The position numbers and the translations under genes were made by a program. Below, piece by piece: positions 44,077 through 52,853 of a DNA stretch of 64,000 nt (the first letter of the stretch is position 1; the number at the start of each line of letters is the position of its first letter). The stretch covers positions 186,001-250,000 of the forward strand of contig JAIXZY010000066.1 of the NCBI GenBank assembly GCA_027489355.1. Direction: 5' to 3'. Source of the DNA: Paracoccaceae bacterium (lineage in GTDB: Bacteria > Pseudomonadota > Alphaproteobacteria > Rhodobacterales > Rhodobacteraceae). Below the pieces are notes generated by a model. It was not told where the DNA came from, made no database searches, and saw nothing but the letters and a program-made list of their open reading frames with translations.

Positions 44077-44150
44077 TGGAGCGGGTGAAGGGAATCGAAC
44101 CCTCGTCGTAAGCTTGGGAAGCTTCTGCTCTACCATTGAGCTACACCCGC
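44077..44150 (-). tRNA. tRNA-Gly (anticodon CCC)
   Basis: A 74-nt cloverleaf with encoded 3' CCA (44077-44079). The acceptor GCGGGTG pairs with CACCCGC, and the D-arm GCTC/GAGC is intact. The anticodon loop TTCCCAA gives CCC at positions 34-36, and the T-arm GAGGG/CCCTT has TTCGATT. The 27-43 pair is G-A, as I recall it from the TCC isoacceptor of related bacteria. It reads GGG codons. Confidence 0.93.
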
Positions 44151-44213: not shown

Positions 44214-45239
44214 TCACTGCTGAGGGACGTTTTCACGGAGGATGATCCTTGGCTCGATGTTCTTCAGCAGAAGCTGCGGGGCGGTTGTCGCGATGGCGCC
44301 AAGAAGCCGGATTACCGCCTGCTCGCCCACAAGCTGCACGTTCTGGTCGATCACCACGTCGATCATCCCCGATTTCAGCCAGACATGCGTGCGGTCGGTC
44401 AGGTCGTGCATGACAACAAGCGGGCGGGGGCGGGGGCGGATGTCTTCCAGGGCGGCGACGATGCCGGTCCGCCCGGCGCCCACGCAGTAGATCCCGGCGA
44501 GCTGCGGCACGCTGCGCAGAAGTGACGCCATCGCCATCCGGGTCCGGTCGCTGCTTTCGCCGGTCTCGATGGTCGGCAGCAGAGAGAGGCCGGGGAAGTC
44601 GCTTTCGATCACGGCGCGAAACCCGGTCTCGCGGGTCTGGTGGCCGTCATAGGCGCGCGACCCCATGAAGAGCGCGATAGATCCAGCGCCGCGGCCTGCC
44701 ATCCGCCCCATCAGAAGTGCGGCGGTCCGGCCAGCAACGGTGTTGTCCACGCCGACATACGCCGACCGGCCGGACCCTGGCACGTCCGACGCGATGGTCA
44801 CGACGCGCAGGCCCGCTTCGCGCGCGCGTCGGATCGCCTCGCGCGTTTTCGGATGGTCGGCCGCCACGATGCCGATCCCGCTGGTCCGCAAGGAGACCGA
44901 TTCCAGCGCGGGCAGGACAGTCTCGGGGCCAAAGCCGTCCAGCGCGCGGATGTTGCAGGACGCCACCAGCGGCACAGTTGCTGCGAACCGGCGGATGCTG
45001 GCAACCAGTTCCCCCATGAACCCGTTCTGGATCATCGGAATGAAGAACTCGAGGTGCACCGGACGAGAGGGGAGGGCGACCATGCCCTCGAACGGCAGGT
45101 AGCCCAAGTCCTTTGCCGCGGTCAGAACGCGATGCCGGTTGGCGGCCGAAACCCCGGCCCGCCCGTTCAGGACCCGGTCCACGGTGGCGGTGGACACCCC
45201 TGCCACGCGGGCGACGTCGACGATGGTGGTCTTCCCCAT
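44214..45239 (-). CDS. LacI-family transcriptional regulator
   Basis: 341 residues from the ATG at 45239 (CGGAG upstream); a 46-codon upstream frame is non-coding in composition. N-terminal HTH TIVDVARVAGVSTATVDRVL (about 5-24) with hinge helix AAKDLGYLP. The rest is a periplasmic-binding-protein-type sensor domain that keeps the sugar-binding character (GSRAYDGHQTRETGFR, GAGRTGIVAAL). It is divergent from the sugar ABC transporter operon and very likely represses it until the transported sugar or a derivative binds. Confidence 0.92.
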   Translation of the reverse strand: MGKTTIVDVARVAGVSTATVDRVLNGRAGVSAANRHRVLTAAKDLGYLPFEGMVALPSRPVHLEFFIPMIQNGFMGELVASIRRFAATVPLVASCNIRALDGFGPETVLPALESVSLRTSGIGIVAADHPKTREAIRRAREAGLRVVTIASDVPGSGRSAYVGVDNTVAGRTAALLMGRMAGRGAGSIALFMGSRAYDGHQTRETGFRAVIESDFPGLSLLPTIETGESSDRTRMAMASLLRSVPQLAGIYCVGAGRTGIVAALEDIRPRPRPLVVMHDLTDRTHVWLKSGMIDVVIDQNVQLVGEQAVIRLLGAIATTAPQLLLKNIEPRIILRENVPQQ

Positions 45240-45575
45240 GCTCCGCTGTCCCCGCCGGCGCGGTGATCCTGATGCAATCTGATGTGATCTCAGGTTGTGG
45301 CATTCTGCCGCATCCCGCAAGCTCAACCTGTCCGGCGCGCTGGCTGAACGGCGCGGAACGGGGCGGCCTGGCTGCATCGGGAGGGATGCTGCCCGTCCTT
45401 CGGACAGGACAGGAGGATATCGAACATGCAGTCACCCCTCACCCCCGTGGGCGATGGGCATGGGTGTGGTGTGCCCCGCAAGGTCGGGTCGGGCCTGCGG
45501 AGTGCATGAATACTGCGGCTTCGGCCGTCAATCGGGGGTCGAACGACCCGTGGGTCATCAAGGAGGAAACCCGCA
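45240..45575. promoter_or_regulatory. Divergent control region of the sugar-uptake locus
   Basis: 336 nt without a convincing gene. It holds two adjacent 10-bp near-repeats (TGATGCAATC 45270-45279, TGATGTGATC 45280-45289) 31 nt before the regulator start, and a hairpin-like GGGTCG-AA-CGACCC (45536-45549) just upstream of the AAGGAGG ribosome site of the binding-protein gene. The repeats or the inverted element may bind the LacI-family protein. No clean promoter was identified. Confidence 0.4.
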
Positions 45576-46505
45576 ATGCTGAAGAAGTTGCTTGGTGCTG
45601 CCGCTGCACTTTCCCTGACTGCAGGCCTCGCGGCCGCCGAGGGCAAGACCTATTACTGGGTGTCGCATGGCGGCCCGGCCGACCCGGTCTGGACCTACTT
45701 CCTGCAGGGTGCCGAAGCCTATGCCAAGACCTCGGGCAACACGGTCAACACTTCGTTCCATTCGGGTGATGTGCCCAGCCAGCAGGAAGCCGTGCGCGCG
45801 GCCATCGCGGCGGGGGCGGACGGCATCTGCTCGACCAGTCCGGACCCCGGGTCCATGACCGACGTGGTGGCCGAGGCGCGGGCGGCGGGGATTCCGATCA
45901 TCAACTTCAACACCTCGGACGCGGCCCCGAACTGGAACGCCTATGTCGGCGGAGACCTCAAGGCGGTGGGCAAGGCCTGGGCGCAGTATCTGGTCGACAA
46001 TGGCCATGTGAAGCAGGGGGACTTCGTCTGGATGCCCGTCGAGGTTCCGGGCGCGTCCTATGGCGTCGAGGAGGAGAAGGGGATCAAGGAGGTCTTGGAG
46101 CCGCTGGGCATCACCTGGGAAGTGACCGACGCAACCCTTGATCAGGCCGAGGTGATCACCCGGATGACCGACTATGTCACCGCGAACCGCGACAAGATCA
46201 AGGCGATGATCGGCCTGGGCGACATGGTCACGGGGTCCGTCAAGCGGGTCTGGGACCAGGCAGGCGTCGCGGCGGGCGAGATCCCGGTGGTAGGCTGGGG
46301 CAACTCGCTCGACACCACGCAGGAGGTGATGGACGGCTACGTCAACGCTGCCATGTGGCAGGACCCGCAGGCGACGTCCTACCTGTGCCTGTCCGCGCTG
46401 CAGATGGAGAATGACGGGATTCCGCTGGGCTTCGACATCATCACCGGGGCGCTGTACGGCAAGGACACGGCACCGGTCTACCACAAGATCATGGGCGGCA
46501 ACTGA
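45576..46505 (+). CDS. Sugar ABC transporter substrate-binding protein (RbsB/MocB-like)
   Basis: 309 residues. Signal peptide KKLLGAAAALSLTAGLAAA with cleavage near residue 21. The mature protein is a type I periplasmic-binding fold of the ribose/rhizopine group (Peripla_BP_4): GADGICSTSPDPGSM, AGIPIINFNTSD and VGWGNSLDTTQEVMDGYVNAAMWQDP are the ligand-pocket strands. It delivers a monosaccharide or cyclitol to the adjacent permease. AAGGAGG precedes the start. A strong hairpin follows the gene. Confidence 0.92.
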   Translation: MLKKLLGAAAALSLTAGLAAAEGKTYYWVSHGGPADPVWTYFLQGAEAYAKTSGNTVNTSFHSGDVPSQQEAVRAAIAAGADGICSTSPDPGSMTDVVAEARAAGIPIINFNTSDAAPNWNAYVGGDLKAVGKAWAQYLVDNGHVKQGDFVWMPVEVPGASYGVEEEKGIKEVLEPLGITWEVTDATLDQAEVITRMTDYVTANRDKIKAMIGLGDMVTGSVKRVWDQAGVAAGEIPVVGWGNSLDTTQEVMDGYVNAAMWQDPQATSYLCLSALQMENDGIPLGFDIITGALYGKDTAPVYHKIMGGN

Positions 46506-46516
46506 CGCCATCCTCG

Positions 46517-46543
46517 GGGCCGCCCGTCCCTGGCGGGCGGCCC
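46517..46543 (+). terminator. Intercistronic hairpin after the binding-protein gene
   Basis: GGGCCGCCCG and CGGGCGGCCC form a perfect 10-bp stem with a 7-nt loop between the binding-protein stop and the permease start. It probably protects or partly terminates the message so that the binding protein is made in excess. The peptide transporter operon has the same arrangement. Confidence 0.6.
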
Positions 46544-46570
46544 TTCGCGCCCCTTATCCCTGGACCGACC

Positions 46571-47590
46571 ATGACAAGCACCCCGTCGCCCGCTGCGGCG
46601 CACCCCCCCGAGCAGGGCGCGCTGCGCCGCTTCATCGCCAAGCCCGAGTTCGGACCCTTGGTCCTGCTGGTGGTGATGCTGGTGGTCTTCACCGCGATCA
46701 ACCCGGCCTTCCTGTCGCTGAACAATATCGGCAATGCGCTGACCTTCACGGTGGAACTGGGTCTGATCGCGCTGGCGATGACGCTTCTGATGACGGCGGG
46801 GGAGTTCGACCTGTCGGTCGGATCTGTCTTCGGCTTCGCGCCAGTGGTGATGTGGGCCTTCTTCAACGCCGGCCTCCTGCCCCTGCCTGCGGCCTTCCTG
46901 GTGGCAATGGTGATCGCGCTGGGGATCGGGCTCGTCTCGGGCCTGTTCGTCACGCGGCTGGGGATTCCATCGTTCCTGGTGACGCTGGGGATGCTTCTTG
47001 TGGTGCGCGGATCGGCGCTGTGGCTGACCTCGGGCTTTCCGCAGCGGACCTGGGATGCGGGCGACCAGTGGCTTGCGACGCTGCTGGTCGGGGACTTCTA
47101 CATCGGGGGCCTGAGGGTCTACATGAGCCTGATCTGGTTCATCCTGCTGGCGGTGGCCTTCCATGTGCTGCTGACCCAGACCCGCTTCGGCAACTGGGTT
47201 CAGGCGACGGGCGGAAATCCCGGTGCTGCGCGGAACCGGGGCGTGCCGATCCAGCGGGTGAAGGTGATCCTGTTCATGCTGTCCGCTGCAATGGCGGCAT
47301 TGGCCGGGATCATCTCGTCGATCCGGGTGTCGGCGGCGAACCCGAACTCAGGGACGGGGTACGAGCTTGAGGTCATCGCGATGGTGGTGATCGGGGGCAC
47401 TGTCCTGTCGGGCGGGCGGGGGACGATCATAGGGACGGTACTGGGGGTCCTGATCCTGCGGCTGATGCGCAACGGGATCGTGCTGATCGGGGTGCCGGGG
47501 CTGGCCTACAACATCTTCATCGGGGCGATCATCCTGGGGATGATGGCGCTGCACGCGGCGCTGGAACGCCGCCACAACGCGGGGACCTGA
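46571..47590 (+). CDS. Sugar ABC transporter permease (RbsC/FrcC-like)
   Basis: 339 residues with about nine to ten hydrophobic segments and the BPD_transp_2 signature: LMTAGEFDLSVGSVFG (about 75-90) and VIGGTVLSGGRGTIIGTVLGV (about 270-290). It forms the homodimeric inner-membrane channel for the sugar. GTG/ATG context is adequate; starts 65 nt after the binding-protein stop and is 3 nt before the ATPase. Confidence 0.93.
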   Translation: MTSTPSPAAAHPPEQGALRRFIAKPEFGPLVLLVVMLVVFTAINPAFLSLNNIGNALTFTVELGLIALAMTLLMTAGEFDLSVGSVFGFAPVVMWAFFNAGLLPLPAAFLVAMVIALGIGLVSGLFVTRLGIPSFLVTLGMLLVVRGSALWLTSGFPQRTWDAGDQWLATLLVGDFYIGGLRVYMSLIWFILLAVAFHVLLTQTRFGNWVQATGGNPGAARNRGVPIQRVKVILFMLSAAMAALAGIISSIRVSAANPNSGTGYELEVIAMVVIGGTVLSGGRGTIIGTVLGVLILRLMRNGIVLIGVPGLAYNIFIGAIILGMMALHAALERRHNAGT

Positions 47591-47593
47591 GCG

Positions 47594-48346
47594 ATGACTG
47601 ACACTCCGCTGGTGGAAATGCGGCATATCCAGAAGTCCTACGGCCGGGTCCATGCGCTGCGCGACGTGAACCTGACAATCCGGCGGGGCGAGATCGTGGG
47701 TCTTCTGGGTGACAACGGTGCCGGGAAATCCACGCTGATCAAAGTGTTGTCCGGGGCGGTGCCCTATACCTCGGGCGAGATCCGGATCAAGGGGCAGCCC
47801 GTCACGATGACCTCGACCAACGACGCCATTTCGGCGGGGATCGAGACGATCTACCAGGACTCCGCCCTTGTCCCGCAACTCTCCATCGCGCGGAACCTGT
47901 TCCTGGGGCGCGAGCTGACGAAGGGAAGCCTCGGGCGGCTGGACCTGGACCGGATGAATCAGGTCGCGGCGGATCTGCTGAAGCGGGTCGGCATCTCGAA
48001 GAACATCCCGCCCACGACGCCCATTGGGTCCCTTTCGGGCGGGGAGAGGCAGGCCGTTGCCATCGCCCGCGCGATGTATTTCGACAGCGACCTGATCATC
48101 CTGGACGAACCGACGAACAACCTTGGCGTGGCCGAGACGCAGGGCGTCCTGCGCTTTGTCCGCGAGGCACGGGACACCGGCCATTCCTGCATCTTCATCG
48201 CCCACAACATCCACCACGTCTTCCAGGTCGTGGACCGGATGGTGGTGATGCGGCGGGGGACGGTGGTTGCGGATGACCTGAGCCCCAAGACCTCGTCCAT
48301 CCAGGACGTCGAGGACGTGATCACCGGCGACCATATCCTCGTCTGA
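47594..48346 (+). CDS. Sugar ABC transporter ATP-binding protein (single-domain, FrcA-like)
   Basis: 250 residues with one ABC domain: Walker A GDNGAGKST (about 38-46), signature LSGGERQ (about 146-152), Walker B LIILDEPTNNLG. Most sugar ABC ATPases of this type (RbsA) have two fused ABC domains; the single-domain form, as in FrcA, is common in alphaproteobacteria and would act as a homodimer. Third gene of the uptake part of the operon. Confidence 0.93.
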   Translation: MTDTPLVEMRHIQKSYGRVHALRDVNLTIRRGEIVGLLGDNGAGKSTLIKVLSGAVPYTSGEIRIKGQPVTMTSTNDAISAGIETIYQDSALVPQLSIARNLFLGRELTKGSLGRLDLDRMNQVAADLLKRVGISKNIPPTTPIGSLSGGERQAVAIARAMYFDSDLIILDEPTNNLGVAETQGVLRFVREARDTGHSCIFIAHNIHHVFQVVDRMVVMRRGTVVADDLSPKTSSIQDVEDVITGDHILV

Positions 48347-48408
48347 CCAGCTTGACAGGCAGGGGCGGCCCGCCCCGATCCGGGGACCCGCACCTGAAAG
48401 GAAGACTC

Positions 48409-49431
48409 ATGCGCGTGCTATACGACCCCGAACCGAGAGCTACCGAAGAAATCTTCTCGCCCGAGGACCTGGCTTTCCTGCGGTCGCAGTATCAGGTGAC
48501 TGAATGGAAGGGCGAAGAGCGGGAGGCCTTCTATGCGCAGCACCTGCCGGGGACGGAGATCCTGATCTCGCAGCAGGCGATGGGGGCGGATCGGCTGGGG
48601 ATGGCGCCCAAATTGCGGGCGATTTTCAACGTCGAGACGAACTTCCTGCCGAACGTGGATTATGCCGAATGCTTCCGGCGTGGCATCCATGTGCTCGCCC
48701 CTGGCGCAGTCTTTGCGGCCCCGGTGGCGGAGATGGCGCTTGGCATGGCGCTGTCGCTTGCGCGGAACATCCACGGCGAGCACGCGGCCTTCCTGCGGGG
48801 AGAGGAGAAGTGGCTCTTCGAGGGGAACAAGCAGTCGGAACTGCTGGCGGGATCGACCGTGGGGATCATCGGCTTCGGGGACCTCGGCCGGTCGCTTTAC
48901 CGGCTGCTCGCGCCCTTTGGCTGCCGGGTGCAGGTCTTCGATCCCTGGCTCCCGCCCGGCCACCTGAAGCGGCTGGGGGTGGAGCCGGTGGGGTTTGACG
49001 CGCTCATGGCGGGGAACCGCTTTATCTTCGTCATGGCCACGATCACCACCGACAACGCCGGGATGATCGACGCCCGCGCCTTGGGGCTGATGCAGCAAGG
49101 CGCGATGCTTCTCCTGATGTCGCGGGCGGCGGCGGCGGACTTTGGCGCGCTGACGACGGCGGCGGCCTCGGGGCGGATCCGGGTGGCGACGGATGTCTTC
49201 CCGGTCGAACCGGTGCCGCAGGACGATCCGGTCCGGCGGGTGCCCAACATGCTCTTCTCGCCCCACCGGGCCGGGGCGCTGACCTTTGCGCTGCGGGAAA
49301 TCGGGACGCGGGTACTGGAGGACATGGACCTTGTCTCGCGCGGGTTGCCGCCCGTCGCCTGCCGCCGGGCGGAACCGGAGACCGTGGCGCGGATGCGGTC
49401 GATGCCGGTCGTTGCCACGCCGAAAGGGTAG
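48409..49431 (+). CDS. D-isomer-specific 2-hydroxyacid dehydrogenase family protein
   Basis: 340 residues from the ATG at 48409 (GAAAGGAAGA upstream). NAD-binding GFGDLGRSL (about 145-153), with Asp at the end of the second strand (VFDPWLP), suggests NAD rather than NADP. The catalytic trio appears as Arg in LMSRAAAADF, Glu in DVFPVEPVP and His in SPHRAGAL. The family reduces 2-keto acids or oxidises D-2-hydroxyacids, including sugar acids. Within this locus it could act on an aldonic-acid-type intermediate of the imported sugar. Followed 3 nt later by the DUF4432 gene. Confidence 0.88.
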   Translation: MRVLYDPEPRATEEIFSPEDLAFLRSQYQVTEWKGEEREAFYAQHLPGTEILISQQAMGADRLGMAPKLRAIFNVETNFLPNVDYAECFRRGIHVLAPGAVFAAPVAEMALGMALSLARNIHGEHAAFLRGEEKWLFEGNKQSELLAGSTVGIIGFGDLGRSLYRLLAPFGCRVQVFDPWLPPGHLKRLGVEPVGFDALMAGNRFIFVMATITTDNAGMIDARALGLMQQGAMLLLMSRAAAADFGALTTAAASGRIRVATDVFPVEPVPQDDPVRRVPNMLFSPHRAGALTFALREIGTRVLEDMDLVSRGLPPVACRRAEPETVARMRSMPVVATPKG

Positions 49432-49434
49432 GGA

Positions 49435-50616
49435 ATGGACCTGCACGGCGAGACCCTGACGCGGGAGGACCTGAGGCGGCGAAGCGGTCAGCTTGGCTCT
49501 TATGGCGGTATCCGGCTGGTGGAGCTTGCGGACGGCACCGAACGCGGGCTGCGGGTGCTGGAGTTCCGCACCGGTGCGGGGCTGCGGTTTGCCGTCGCCG
49601 TGGACCGGGCGATGGACATCGTGGAGGTCGAACACCGGGGCATCTCGATGGGCTGGCACGGGCCGTCGGGCCTGCGCCACCCCGGCTTGCACGAACCGGA
49701 AGGCGAGCGCGGCTTCGGCTGGGCTCGGAGCTTCACCGGGTTCCTTGTCACCTGCGGTTTGGACCATATCCTTGGGCCAGAGGAGGTCGACGCCAGCCAC
49801 TACGGCTATCCGGGAGTGCGGACCGTGCGGCACGGGCTGCATGGGCGGGTGGCGAATATCCCGGCGCGTTTGACCGGCTATGGCGAGGCCTGGGAGGGCG
49901 ACCGCTGCATCCTCTGGGCCGAGGGCGAGGTGCGGCAGGCCACGACCTTCGGCGAGCATCTGGTGCTGGTCCGTCGGATCGAGGCGGACCTTGATGCCTG
50001 CGAAATCCGCCTGACCGACCGGGTGGAGAACCGGGGGTTCCAGCCCACGCCGCACATGTTCTTCTACCACGTGAACCTTGGCGCTCCGCTGCTGGCCGAT
50101 GGGGCGCGGTATGTGGCCCCCATCGCCGACGTGGTCTGGGCCGCGCATGAGGCGCGCTATCGGGATCAGGGTGTGGGCTATGCCGACGTCCCGGCGCCGC
50201 AAGACCGGTTTGCCGAACAGGTCTGGCAGCACGAGACCGCCGCGGACGGGCAGGGCTGGGTGCCTGTGGCACTGGTGAATGACCGCCTCGGCCTGGGGAT
50301 GCAGGTATCGACCCTCAAGGACCAACTGCCCTGCCTTTACCAGTGGCAACATTTCCAGGCAGGGGGCTATGCGCTTGGAATCGAACCCTCGACTCACCAT
50401 GTCCTTGGCAACCAGGCCGCCCGCGACCGGGGCGAGATGATCTGGCTGCGCGCGGGGGAGGAACGGCACTACGACGCCCGCTTCACGGTGCTGGACGGGG
50501 CAGTGGCCCTGGCCGAAGCCGAAGCCCGCATCCGTGCCATCGCCGTCCAGCCGGACGACCCCTATCCCCGGCCCTCGGGCCAGTTCCGCCCGCTGACCGG
50601 GCGACCCCAGCCTTGA
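49435..50616 (+). CDS. DUF4432 family aldose-1-epimerase-like protein
   Basis: 393 residues of the galactose-mutarotase-like beta-sandwich superfamily. The DUF4432 features are DRAMDIVEVEHRGISMGWHGPSG (about 60-82), a conserved HGLHGRVANIPAR (about 132-144) and the FYHVNLGAPLL strand. The C-terminal YALGIEPSTHHVLGN provides likely catalytic Glu and His. The family occurs with sugar ABC transporters and may interconvert anomers or epimerise unusual sugars. Its chemistry is not established. Tightly packed in the operon. Confidence 0.82.
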   Translation: MDLHGETLTREDLRRRSGQLGSYGGIRLVELADGTERGLRVLEFRTGAGLRFAVAVDRAMDIVEVEHRGISMGWHGPSGLRHPGLHEPEGERGFGWARSFTGFLVTCGLDHILGPEEVDASHYGYPGVRTVRHGLHGRVANIPARLTGYGEAWEGDRCILWAEGEVRQATTFGEHLVLVRRIEADLDACEIRLTDRVENRGFQPTPHMFFYHVNLGAPLLADGARYVAPIADVVWAAHEARYRDQGVGYADVPAPQDRFAEQVWQHETAADGQGWVPVALVNDRLGLGMQVSTLKDQLPCLYQWQHFQAGGYALGIEPSTHHVLGNQAARDRGEMIWLRAGEERHYDARFTVLDGAVALAEAEARIRAIAVQPDDPYPRPSGQFRPLTGRPQP

Positions 50617-50627
50617 CGGAGAGCGCC

Positions 50628-51731
50628 ATGCCCTACGACACCCTCGTCGAACGCCGCGACTATTCACTGACCGGACCTTCGGCTGCGCAGGCAATCGAGC
50701 GGGGGCTCGCCTCGGCCGAATGGTATCACTCCGACATCCCCCGCAAGGTGATGAAGGAGCTGATGCAGCGCCGCGACGGACCGGCGATCCGCGATACGGC
50801 TTTATGGTTCGTGGGGCTGGGTCTGTCGGCCTGGGGTGGCATTGCCTTCTGGGGCACTTGGGTATGCGTCCCGTTCTGGCTGGTCTACGGCGTCCTCTAC
50901 GGGTCAGCCTGTGACTCGCGCTGGCACGAATGCGGGCACGGTACGGCATTCCGCACCGGCTGGATGAACGAAGTCGTCTACCACATCGCGAGCTTCATGG
51001 TGATGCGGAACCCGGTCAGTTGGCGCTGGAGCCATGCGCGTCACCACACCGACACGATCATCGTCGGCCGCGACGCCGAAATCGGCTTCATGCACCCGGC
51101 TTCCATCCTGCTGACCGTGCTGCACTTCGTCGGCATCGTCGACATCTGGCAGTGGATGAAGATCCTGGTCCGCAACGCCGCGGGGGTCTTCACCCCGGAC
51201 GAGCGCGACTACATCCCGGCCTCGGAAATCGGCAAGGCGACATTCTGGGCGCGGGTGCATGTGGCGATCTATGCGGCCACGCTGATTGCGGCCATCTGGA
51301 TGCAGTCGATCCTGCCCTTCATGCTGATCGGCGGGCCGCGCATCTATGGCACCTGGCACATGTTCATGACCGGCCTGATCCAGCATGGTGGCCTGGCCGA
51401 GGATGTGCTGGACCACCGGCTGAACAGCCGCACGGTCCTGATGAACCCCGTAAGCCGCTGGATCTACTGGAACATGAACTTCCACATCGAACATCACATG
51501 TTCCCGATGGTGCCCTACCACGCCCTGCCGCGTCTGCACGCGCTCATCAAGGATGACCTGCCGCCGCCGTGCCCCTCGATCTATGCGGCCTTCCGGGAAA
51601 TGGTCCCGGCCATCCTTCGCCAGCGGCGCGAGAAGGGGTATTACCTGCGCAAGATCCTTCCCCCCACCGCGCGACCCTACCGGGAAGACCTGCACGACAC
51701 CGTCCCCGACCGCGAAGGCTTGCGCGCATGA
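50628..51731 (+). CDS. MocD-like diiron membrane oxygenase (fatty acid desaturase superfamily)
   Basis: 367 residues from the ATG at 50628. The three His boxes of membrane diiron desaturase/hydroxylases are present: HECGH at 100-104, HARHH at 136-140 and HIEHH at 286-290. Hydrophobic segments lie at about 58-92, 160-178 and 225-248. In rhizopine (3-O-methyl-scyllo-inosamine) catabolism, MocD of this superfamily together with ferredoxin MocE removes the O-methyl group. Here a MocE-like Rieske protein is encoded by the next gene with a 4-nt overlap, and a sugar transporter precedes. An O-demethylase or hydroxylase acting on the imported compound is therefore more likely than a lipid desaturase. 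Confidence 0.8.
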   Translation: MPYDTLVERRDYSLTGPSAAQAIERGLASAEWYHSDIPRKVMKELMQRRDGPAIRDTALWFVGLGLSAWGGIAFWGTWVCVPFWLVYGVLYGSACDSRWHECGHGTAFRTGWMNEVVYHIASFMVMRNPVSWRWSHARHHTDTIIVGRDAEIGFMHPASILLTVLHFVGIVDIWQWMKILVRNAAGVFTPDERDYIPASEIGKATFWARVHVAIYAATLIAAIWMQSILPFMLIGGPRIYGTWHMFMTGLIQHGGLAEDVLDHRLNSRTVLMNPVSRWIYWNMNFHIEHHMFPMVPYHALPRLHALIKDDLPPPCPSIYAAFREMVPAILRQRREKGYYLRKILPPTARPYREDLHDTVPDREGLRA

Positions 51732-52042
51732 CCTGGCATCCCGTCTGCCCTCTGGACGACATCGACCCCGAGGATCTGATCCGTTTCGACCACGGGGGGC
51801 GCAGCTATGCTGTCTACCGCGACCCCAAGGGTGCGGTCTTTGCCACAGACGGGCTTTGCACGCATGAACAGGTGCATCTCTGCGACGGGCTGGTGATGGG
51901 GGACGAGATCGAATGCCCCAAGCACAACGGCCGGTTCGACTACAAGACCGGCGCCGCCCGCCGGGCGCCTTGCGTCACGGCTCTCCGCACACATCCGGTG
52001 AGGGTGGTGGACGGCATGATCGAGATCGGGTTGGAGGACTGA
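51728..52042 (+). CDS. MocE-like Rieske [2Fe-2S] ferredoxin
   Basis: 104 residues, start overlapping the oxygenase stop. Rieske cluster ligands are Cys44 and His46 (CTHEQVHL) and Cys63 and His66 (CPKHNGRFD). The length and absence of further domains match MocE-type and NdmD-like small ferredoxins. It would pass electrons to the diiron oxygenase; the ferredoxin reductase (MocF counterpart) is not in this operon and must come from elsewhere. Confidence 0.9.
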   Translation: MTWHPVCPLDDIDPEDLIRFDHGGRSYAVYRDPKGAVFATDGLCTHEQVHLCDGLVMGDEIECPKHNGRFDYKTGAARRAPCVTALRTHPVRVVDGMIEIGLED

Positions 52043-52043
52043 G

Positions 52044-52853
52044 ATGCCCCGGACAAGACCCACTGTCGCCGACCTGCGCGCGCTGAAGGGCAAACGGCAG
52101 CTCACCATGCTGCGCATCTTCACCCTGGACGAGGCGGCGGCGGCCGAGGAGGCCGGGATCGACATCGTCTCGGTCCCGCCGGAGCTGATCCTGAACCCCG
52201 AGTACCGCAAGGTCGCGCCGACGCTCTTTTCCATGTCGGGCCTCGACCACCGCGAGGCCGGGACGCGCGAGGATTACCTGCGTTTCTGCGGCAAGCTGCT
52301 CGTGGCCGGGGCGGATGCGATGTACTCCTCGGCCGGGATCGACACGGTGCGCTACCTCGCGTCGGAACACATCCCCATCGTCGGTCACGTGGGCCTGGTC
52401 CCCAGCCGGGCGACCTGGACCGGGGGTTTCCGGGCGGTGGGCAAGACTGCGGATCAGGCGCTGGCGCTCTATCGGGAATGCCAGGCCTATGAGGCGGCGG
52501 GGGCCTTCGCGGTGGAAATCGAGGTGGTTCCCGAAGAGGTCGCGACCGAGATCAGCCGCCGGATGGAGCGGCTTCTCCTGTGGTCAATGGGGGCGGGCGC
52601 GGGCTGCGATGCGCAGTACCTCTTCGCGATGGACATCCTGGGCGAGCACAAGGACCACATGCCGCGCCATTCCAAGGTCTACCGCAACTTCGCCGCCGAA
52701 TACGACCGGCTGCAGCGGGAGCGGGTGGCGGCGTTCACCGAGTTCCGGACGGACGTCGAAACCGGCCGCTTTCCCGAAGAGCGCCATATCCTGCACATGG
52801 CACCCGAGGAATTGGCAAGTCTGAAAGCGGCGCTTGGATCGCCGAAGGCCTGA
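52044..52853 (+). CDS. PanB-like protein, diverged (3-methyl-2-oxobutanoate hydroxymethyltransferase family)
   Basis: 269 residues, about PanB length, 1 nt after the Rieske gene. LKGKRQLTML near the N-terminus and GHVGLVPSRATWTGGFRAVG (about 114-133), AYEAAGAFAVEIEVVPEEVA (about 148-167, with the family Glu160) are clear PanB segments of the PEP mutase/isocitrate-lyase barrel superfamily. However, the PanB metal-binding GDS loop reads VPPELI, the ADLPFGSY region is missing or shortened, and the Lys-Leu-Glu-Gly-Gly catalytic segment reads MYSSAGID. Canonical ketopantoate synthesis is therefore unlikely. It may be an aldolase or C1-transferring enzyme of this locus. Confidence 0.75.
   Translation: MPRTRPTVADLRALKGKRQLTMLRIFTLDEAAAAEEAGIDIVSVPPELILNPEYRKVAPTLFSMSGLDHREAGTREDYLRFCGKLLVAGADAMYSSAGIDTVRYLASEHIPIVGHVGLVPSRATWTGGFRAVGKTADQALALYRECQAYEAAGAFAVEIEVVPEEVATEISRRMERLLLWSMGAGAGCDAQYLFAMDILGEHKDHMPRHSKVYRNFAAEYDRLQRERVAAFTEFRTDVETGRFPEERHILHMAPEELASLKAALGSPKA

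Follow-up and report, generated by a model that had tools for sequence, protein, structure and literature searches.

A PanB-like protein that accompanies MocD-type oxygenases: a candidate for tetrahydrofolate-linked one-carbon capture in a predicted sugar O-demethylation operon

What might a bacterium do with an operon that joins a sugar importer to a membrane diiron oxygenase, and why does a relative of PanB (3-methyl-2-oxobutanoate hydroxymethyltransferase) stand at its end? These questions are raised by a 64,000-nucleotide stretch (hereafter, the window) of contig JAIXZY010000066.1, positions 186,001 to 250,000, from the 4.2-Mb, 81-contig genome (G000) of a Paracoccaceae bacterium (GCA_027489355.1). 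Here, eight co-directional genes on the + strand (45576-52853), with gene gaps of -4 to 65 bp, lie next to a divergent LacI-family gene (44214-45239, - strand), and they encode a CUT2-type ABC importer with its sugar-binding protein (SBP), a D-2-hydroxyacid dehydrogenase family protein, a DUF4432 protein, a MocD-like oxygenase, a MocE-family Rieske ferredoxin, and the PanB-like protein (Table 1). A sequence-only reading had named the LacI regulator, the uptake system, and the MocD- and MocE-like proteins, and Pfam and NCBIfam searches found all nine genes in their predicted places. It had also proposed the oxidative O-demethylation of a sugar other than rhizopine, which we would keep as the best reading of the operon. 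The present analysis adds that the PanB-like gene is part of the oxygenase core and not of one sugar pathway, and that its product is a concrete candidate for the capture of a one-carbon (C1) unit by tetrahydrofolate (THF).

Rather as predicted, the oxygenase and ferredoxin form a MocD/MocE-type pair within a sugar-uptake operon. The oxygenase is a member of the FA_desaturase family, and its three histidine boxes (H100/H104, H136/H139/H140, and H286/H289/H290) do not vary among 33 aligned sequences. The adjacent ferredoxin scores above the cut-off of the MocE family model in NCBIfam (TIGR02377; 150.6 versus 136.15 bits). The most similar oxygenases among named relatives are those of Tabrizicola, Rhodobacter, and other Rhodobacterales, while a second copy in the same genome (G000:C7) shares 61% identity with the window copy. 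The likeness to MocD was judged by a mocDEF-type protein from plasmid pRL11 of Rhizobium johnstonii (64% identity over 353 residues); the MocE-family ferredoxin of pRL11 is 61% identical to that of the window. In strain 3841, this pRL11 cluster (RL_RS32905-32880) fits a mocDEF cluster described as lying beside a FixV homologue (PMC3538637). Both the pRL11 cluster and the window have a LacI gene divergent from the oxygenase, a MocE ferredoxin, and a PanB-like gene. However, the pRL11 cluster includes a reductase gene of its own together with a TIM-barrel gene, lacks such an importer, DUF4432, and dehydrogenase, and encodes a LacI protein of 30% identity.

To see the oxygenase in other settings, a scan with a single genome for each species yielded 57 named loci, three of which (L036, L041, and L088) have no called oxygenase gene and were counted by tblastn. 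Their genes were clustered together with those of the window and of 20 further stretches from related genomes; outside the window, the cluster names Gfo/Idh, TIM-barrel, and SDR follow a reading by eye, with a Pfam check for two TIM-barrel genes only. In 44 of the 57 named loci, a PanB-like gene lies near the oxygenase (gap of at most 1.8 kb), and 41 have a Rieske gene within 6 kb. PanB-like genes are absent from the other 13, the sequence downstream being shorter than 0.6 kb in three of these and about 10 kb long in ten. Among 61 related genomes, 32 oxygenase genes score at least 390 bits, and 28 of these have a PanB-like gene within 2.5 kb (two as fragments, in G005 and G006), with one of the remainder (G017:C128) being at a contig edge.

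The sugar genes around this core vary considerably. The gene order of the window recurs in three other genomes of its genus, with oxygenase identities of 84-86%: G017 (L092) has the complete locus, the importer of G029 (L091) is cut by a contig end, and G010 (L093) has no PanB-like gene. In fact, the layout in which the 2-hydroxyacid dehydrogenase adjoins DUF4432 is found in its own genus only (the window, L034/L091 on one contig, L092, and L093), and a single one of the 57 named loci has a dehydrogenase gene of this kind no more than 6 kb from the oxygenase; such a gene is also present in G017, G010, and G029. In Mesorhizobium, Labrys, and some Rhodobacterales, the order is Gfo/Idh, TIM-barrel, importer, and DUF4432, followed by the oxygenase. 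In most of the own-genus genomes that were opened, and at G000:C7, the oxygenase gene points away from LacI, TIM-barrel, and importer genes, and a Gfo/Idh gene is often present; further layouts combine it with SDR genes, TIM-barrel genes, and genes of importers that have a two-domain ATPase. The PanB-like gene had earlier been read as a sign of a different substrate; this has to be given up, as the gene tracks the oxygenase across these different sugar modules. Since relatives of the protein also accompany a second oxygenase family, it is to be read together with the oxygenase.

For that second family, we searched the same 61 genomes with a PanB-like profile (A1) at a threshold of at least 170 bits, canonical PanB typically scoring about 80-110 bits (for example, L224, L225, and L207), and counted partners by hand from match coordinates. 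This gave 47 PanB-likes, including 27 beside an FA_desaturase-type oxygenase and 13 with an FA_hydroxylase-type oxygenase gene at most 6.2 kb away. Of the remaining seven, one has an FA_hydroxylase-type gene at 9.4 kb, one, at a contig edge, is 2.3 kb away from an oxygenase, three accompany a Rieske gene close to the end of their contigs, and two are without any tested partner. All 25 copies of at least 440 bits adjoin the oxygenase. G006 has PanB-like fragments below 80 bits only and is outside the 47, and matches of 118-145 bits (G035, G057, and several in the class sample) were left unclassified. This class sample, of 289 genomes, holds 18 matches of at least 200 bits outside G000, with six beside an FA_desaturase-type oxygenase, four beside PhyH, one with a Rieske gene only, and seven with no tested partner. 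The PhyH (iron/2-oxoglutarate, Fe/2OG) genes adjoin four distant PanB-likes at three loci, and Pfam confirms PhyH for four genes. On Bradyrhizobium and Mesorhizobium plasmids, PanB-like genes occur together with genes for a 'sterol desaturase', a Rieske protein, and an FAD oxidoreductase, and Pfam FA_hydroxylase is confirmed for two second-family oxygenases (L167 and L169), including the Bradyrhizobium one. From these neighbor counts and Pfam assignments, the PanB-like protein appears common to at least two Rieske-linked oxygenase families, and perhaps to Fe/2OG enzymes.

Some of these loci have features of their own. The Bradyrhizobium locus (L167:6956-14061) includes a GH88 gene, and one in G011 (L096:8233-18452) has, as read by eye, sulfatase-like and enolase-superfamily-like genes, these neighbors hinting at polysaccharide-derived substrates for the two. 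A 1.6-Mb alphaproteobacterial genome (G197; L188-L190), with a GC content of 0.31 in L189, carries four PanB-likes and six oxygenase-profile matches. A distant PanB-like clade within the genus (L181 and L182) has no tested oxygenase or Rieske gene nearby.

Is the protein then simply PanB? The window PanB-like shares 30% identity over 200 residues with E. coli PanB, and it falls short of the PanB equivalog model (TIGR00222; 88.6 versus 207.55 bits). In a tree with long branches and unsure deep joins, from which L108 (202 residues) was dropped beforehand, the PanB-likes split from three canonical PanBs with support of 100/100. The label 'beside FA_desaturase-type oxygenase' changes five times on this tree, at least three changes being forced by well-supported branches, and the label 'FA_hydroxylase' six times, with at least five so forced; thus, oxygenase partners have been exchanged among PanB-likes.

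More conspicuous are the residues. We aligned 101 sequences (99 PanB-like and two canonical) with E. coli PanB, whose numbering is used for the positions that follow. D45, D84, K112, and E114, which we take to be the residues holding Mg and the 2-oxo acid in PanB, are changed in the PanB-like subfamily. Position 84 is Gly, position 112 is Tyr, and position 114 is Ser or Ala in all 66 copies (window included) whose sole tested oxygenase partner is of the FA_desaturase type, and Asp is kept at position 45 in two of the 57 FA_desaturase-partnered copies that also have a Rieske gene, being otherwise changed. The metal loop that bears D45 is shortened, with about 19 residues missing in the alignment. 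H136 (101 of 101) and E181 (100 of 101, with one gap) are retained, and position 179, a Val in canonical PanBs, carries a Glu in 98 PanB-likes and a gap in the remaining one of the 99. Two alignments, of 45 and 30 sequences with the window protein among them, show no variation at D91, Y94, H115, E158, and E160 (window numbering). A model of the window protein made with 30 sequences (mean pLDDT 84.7, pTM 0.83, poorly modelled at residues 119-129) takes the form of a barrel, for which PanB structures are the best solved matches, and these five residues lie in or next to three modelled strands (92-95, 112-116, and 156-159). Fold, His136, and Glu181 are common to both proteins, and the metal site is not. 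As judged from the alignment, its loss argues against 2-oxo-acid chemistry, and the newly conserved residues may be catalytic.

For possible C1 links, 98 PanB-like loci, which include two duplicate pairs (L034/L091 and L070/L101), were surveyed for one-carbon genes. A purU gene lies within 3 kb of the PanB-like gene in four loci on three tree branches, adjoining it in M. huakuii, M. alhagi, and M. camelthorni and lying 3 kb off in G153, and folD is near it in one (M. huakuii). There, plasmid pMHb (L113:9603-17334) has oxygenase, Rieske, reductase, PanB-like, purU, and folD genes in a row. Queries with E. coli gcvT, frmA, frmB, and metF against the 98 loci gave one partial frmB match, at 8 kb. 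PurU is present in G000, and Fae was found neither there nor in 59 of 60 relatives. We regard the purU/folD neighborhood as a suggestive C1 link, not a strong one.

Fae and Gfa belong to protein families other than the PanB-like one. They are described as dedicated formaldehyde-activating enzymes for tetrahydromethanopterin and glutathione, respectively, the reaction with THF being given as spontaneous (PMC8879981). Measurements found this spontaneous reaction much too slow to sustain growth, and the idea was raised that PanB might promote formaldehyde-THF condensation (PMC7073904). FolD and PurU make up a THF oxidation route in chloromethane growth (PMC3621897). In a Filomicrobium methanesulfonate island, whose oxygenase yields formaldehyde, a 3-methyl-2-oxobutanoate hydroxymethyltransferase labeled 'C1-moiety transfer' stands next to gcvT (PMC4433239, Table 1), the island protein being a possible member of the PanB-like subfamily. 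Apart from that label and the idea in PMC7073904, a C1 capture role for PanB-likes is not proposed in the parts of the open-licence literature that were searched. The job proposed here for the PanB-likes is that of Fae and Gfa, a faster capture of formaldehyde by a C1 carrier, with the difference that the carrier would be THF.

Our proposal for the operon runs as follows. An O-methylated monosaccharide would be taken up by the LacI-controlled CUT2 importer, and its methoxy carbon would be hydroxylated to O-CH2OH by the MocD-like diiron enzyme with electrons from the MocE-like ferredoxin. As the operon has no reductase gene, the reductase would come from elsewhere in the cell. The PanB-like protein may then accept the C1 unit, as formaldehyde or straight from the O-hydroxymethyl group, to give 5,10-methylene-THF, which FolD and PurU would oxidize to formate. 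For the sugar, DUF4432 would serve as a mutarotase of the aldose, and the dehydrogenase would oxidize or reduce a product ahead of general sugar metabolism. We hold this import, demethylation, and transfer of C1 to THF to be evenly poised between right and wrong. Somewhat more tentatively, and short of an even chance, the PanB-likes may be an unrecognized family that is the THF counterpart of Fae and Gfa, capturing the C1 product of oxygenolytic demethylation, perhaps by taking CH2OH directly so that no formaldehyde is set free, and acting in sugar catabolism with no fewer than two oxygenase families and possibly with three.

Which sugar might this be? The window SBP has 69-74% identity to those of Mesorhizobium composti (L056), of another Mesorhizobium locus (L057), and of a plasmid of Rhizobium sp. 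Kim5 (L112), so that the four probably share a ligand; solved binding proteins are too distant from it to indicate which. The accessory enzymes differ, with Gfo/Idh, TIM-barrel, and DUF4432 in two of the loci (L056 and L057) and a 348-residue protein without a Pfam match in Kim5. The closest solved relative of DUF4432 (3ty1) is named a 'hypothetical aldose 1-epimerase', a name that points to an aldose. The O-methyl group is suggested by the role of mocDEF in rhizopine catabolism together with the C1 context. As for the dehydrogenase, the NCBIfam model that it matches best is that of phosphoglycerate dehydrogenase, with a score under the cut-off. An NAD formate dehydrogenase was considered and rejected upon a by-eye reading of the hydroxyacid-type Arg/Glu/His set, whose Glu falls in the motif DVFPVEP, where formate dehydrogenase presumably has Gln. 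Plasmid relatives of the dehydrogenase number 154 records, all below 60% identity (49.8% for the best among the matches listed), and the three that were opened have other surroundings and do not indicate a substrate. About 3 kb from one of them, in Sinorhizobium sp. B11 (L214:10765-16383), genes for LacI, a 'sterol desaturase', a MocE ferredoxin, a binding protein, an FAD oxidoreductase, and a TIM-barrel protein stand in a row.

MocDE are known to act in the demethylation of rhizopine. The title of a 1998 paper by Bahar speaks of a 'ferredoxin oxygenase complex'. The mocDEF genes have been placed in the catabolism of rhizopine, 3-O-methyl-scyllo-inosamine (PMC10107442). With the mocDEF system of Rhizobium leguminosarum and Sinorhizobium meliloti, the window shares a membrane diiron oxygenase and MocE-family ferredoxin in a regulated sugar or cyclitol uptake locus. 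However, a rhizopine locus was ruled out here, in line with the sequence-only reading: the regulator is LacI and not of the MocR type, there is neither a mocA (Gfo/Idh) nor a mocC (TIM-barrel) type gene among the nine, and the SBP reaches 63 of the 420 bits needed for the rhizopine SBP model (MocB; NF052284), even though this is its best NCBIfam match. The operon also differs in having no reductase gene and in carrying DUF4432, the 2-hydroxyacid dehydrogenase, and the PanB-like protein. The two MocB-carrying loci examined, L133 and one in Rhizobium sp. N324 (L141), hold genes of the inositol type, and neither an oxygenase nor a PanB-like gene is annotated in them. NF052284 is over its cut-off in two of the 289 class genomes, in six of 17 in the G073 family, and in none of three in the G258 family. 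In two 20-kb NF052284-positive stretches (L131 and L132), the oxygenase, Rieske, and PanB-like proteins had no match, no authentic mocDEF locus having been obtained. A parallel to the proposed role is found in porphyran users, in which 6-O-methyl-D-galactose is oxidatively demethylated by a P450 with a ferredoxin and formaldehyde is released (PMC10033563). There, an oxygenase and a ferredoxin remove a sugar O-methyl group, as is proposed for the window operon. The porphyran enzyme differs in being a P450 and not a diiron enzyme, and its neighboring alcohol dehydrogenase is reported not to detoxify formaldehyde (PMC10033563).

Several observations weigh against THF-linked capture by the PanB-like protein. 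In the fetched stretches, purU is missing from 94 of the 98 PanB-like loci and folD from 97. Oxygenase genes stand without a PanB-like gene, despite about 10 kb of downstream sequence, at L039, L042, L045, L047, L051, L062, L064, L071, L080, and L086; G010:C27, G020, and G032 also have the oxygenase without it, and no PanB-like gene is annotated in the Sinorhizobium stretch (L214) with its 'sterol desaturase' and MocE ferredoxin. Conversely, PanB-likes occur without a tested partner in seven of 18 class-sample cases (two near contig ends) and in two of 47 among the relatives. Deletion of canonical panB together with ltaE left formaldehyde-THF growth of E. coli unchanged (PMC7073904). Moreover, the retained His and Glu of PanB would also suit keto-acid chemistry, and 29 of the 32 genus genomes match glutathione-dependent formaldehyde dehydrogenase (E<=1e-60), 25 of them over cut-off. 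G000 itself has no match at that threshold, which may reflect a gap or a local loss; given the 29 genomes, this absence was accorded no weight as support for a THF route.

These 29 genomes favor an arrangement in which O-demethylation is right but the PanB-like protein belongs to the C-C enzymes of the PEP mutase superfamily, either joining formaldehyde to a 2-oxo acid or splitting a 2-oxo acid that the 2-hydroxyacid dehydrogenase supplies, and the glutathione pathway otherwise clears formaldehyde. The PanB fold, with canonical PanB as best structural match, and the retained H136 and E181 would fit this, but the presumed Mg and 2-oxo-acid residues are gone (D84 being Gly in each of the 66 copies), and the 2-hydroxyacid dehydrogenase goes with the window type only, whereas the PanB-like gene goes with several sugar modules; we consider it unlikely. 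Recurrence with different oxygenases and sugar modules also speaks against a hydroxylation of the sugar or cyclitol elsewhere, with no methyl group involved and the PanB-like protein adding or removing the C-hydroxymethyl of a branched sugar. Relatives within FA_desaturase do catalyze many hydroxylations and PanB does act on a C-hydroxymethyl group, yet a C1 product is what the purU/folD and methanesulfonate contexts indicate, and mocDEF has been linked in print to an O-methyl compound (PMC10107442), which leaves this distinctly improbable. The loss of the canonical metal site and a co-occurrence without a fixed C1 gene set would suit a non-catalytic partner that stabilizes Rieske-fed diiron oxygenases or shuttles substrate to them. 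Against this, the five invariant residues lie in or next to the three modelled barrel strands, and relatives adjoin PhyH genes, for whose products no need of a ferredoxin is known, so that we think it very unlikely. A fatty-acid or lipid desaturase with unrelated neighbors has the Pfam name FA_desaturase in its favor, but it is scarcely credible in a tight operon with a sugar importer, a MocE-family ferredoxin, and the noted identity to a rhizobial mocDEF-type protein. THF-linked C1 capture by the PanB-like protein is kept as our working hypothesis, drawn from gene context and the altered active site. Should it be right, many genes annotated as 3-methyl-2-oxobutanoate hydroxymethyltransferase, such as those on rhizobial plasmids, would not be pantothenate genes, and PanB-likes would mark loci for the use of methylated sugars. 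The conserved partner itself makes enzyme-catalyzed capture of formaldehyde by THF a directly testable question.

Table 1. Features of the locus in window coordinates
Feature	Position	Strand	Basis
LacI-family regulator	44214..45239	-	Pfam LacI + Peripla_BP_4; start by codon score
LacI-operon intergenic region, candidate operator/promoter block	45240..45575	.	Conservation in three sequences
Sugar-binding protein (SBP), CUT2-type ABC importer	45576..46505	+	Peripla_BP_4 137 bits
ABC permease	46571..47590	+	Pfam BPD_transp_2
ABC ATPase, single nucleotide-binding domain, 250 aa	47594..48346	+	Pfam
D-2-hydroxyacid dehydrogenase family protein	48409..49431	+	Pfam 2-Hacid_dh_C 125.4 bits (cut-off 25.1)
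DUF4432, mutarotase-like	49435..50616	+	Pfam 326.4 bits (cut-off 32.5)
MocD-like membrane diiron oxygenase	50628..51731	+	Pfam FA_desaturase 109.7 bits (cut-off 29.7)
MocE-family Rieske [2Fe-2S] ferredoxin	51728..52042	+	Pfam Rieske 70.6 bits (cut-off 20.3); TIGR02377
PanB-like TIM-barrel protein, proposed one-carbon transfer enzyme	52044..52853	+	Pfam Pantoate_transf 131.1 bits (cut-off 28.7)

By codon score, the LacI gene starts at 45239 and not at 45377; the start of the dehydrogenase at 48409 and the limits of the oxygenase and ferredoxin genes in Table 1 are corrected as well. In the intergenic region, a block CTGATG.AATCTGATGTGA at about 45269-45287 is conserved in two relatives (three sequences compared), as is much of the GTTGTG.CATTCTG.CGCATCCCGCAAGCT that comes after it. 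By this conservation, the CTGATG block is a candidate operator or promoter element, the LacI proteins of these relatives being of only 48-50% identity. A promoter scan did not pick up the block and gave three promoter-like sites (0.8 expected), none before the operon, and terminator-like sites were not in excess (two versus 3.2 in shuffles). An 843-codon open frame (48418-50949, - strand) runs antisense to the dehydrogenase, DUF4432, and part of the oxygenase; called by a simple gene caller and gone with codon scoring, it was rejected as a high-GC artefact. Beyond the end of the PanB-like gene, the next gene is an Hsp70-like one on the opposite strand, and on the other side a tRNA-Gly(CCC) gene (44077-44150, - strand) adjoins the LacI gene.

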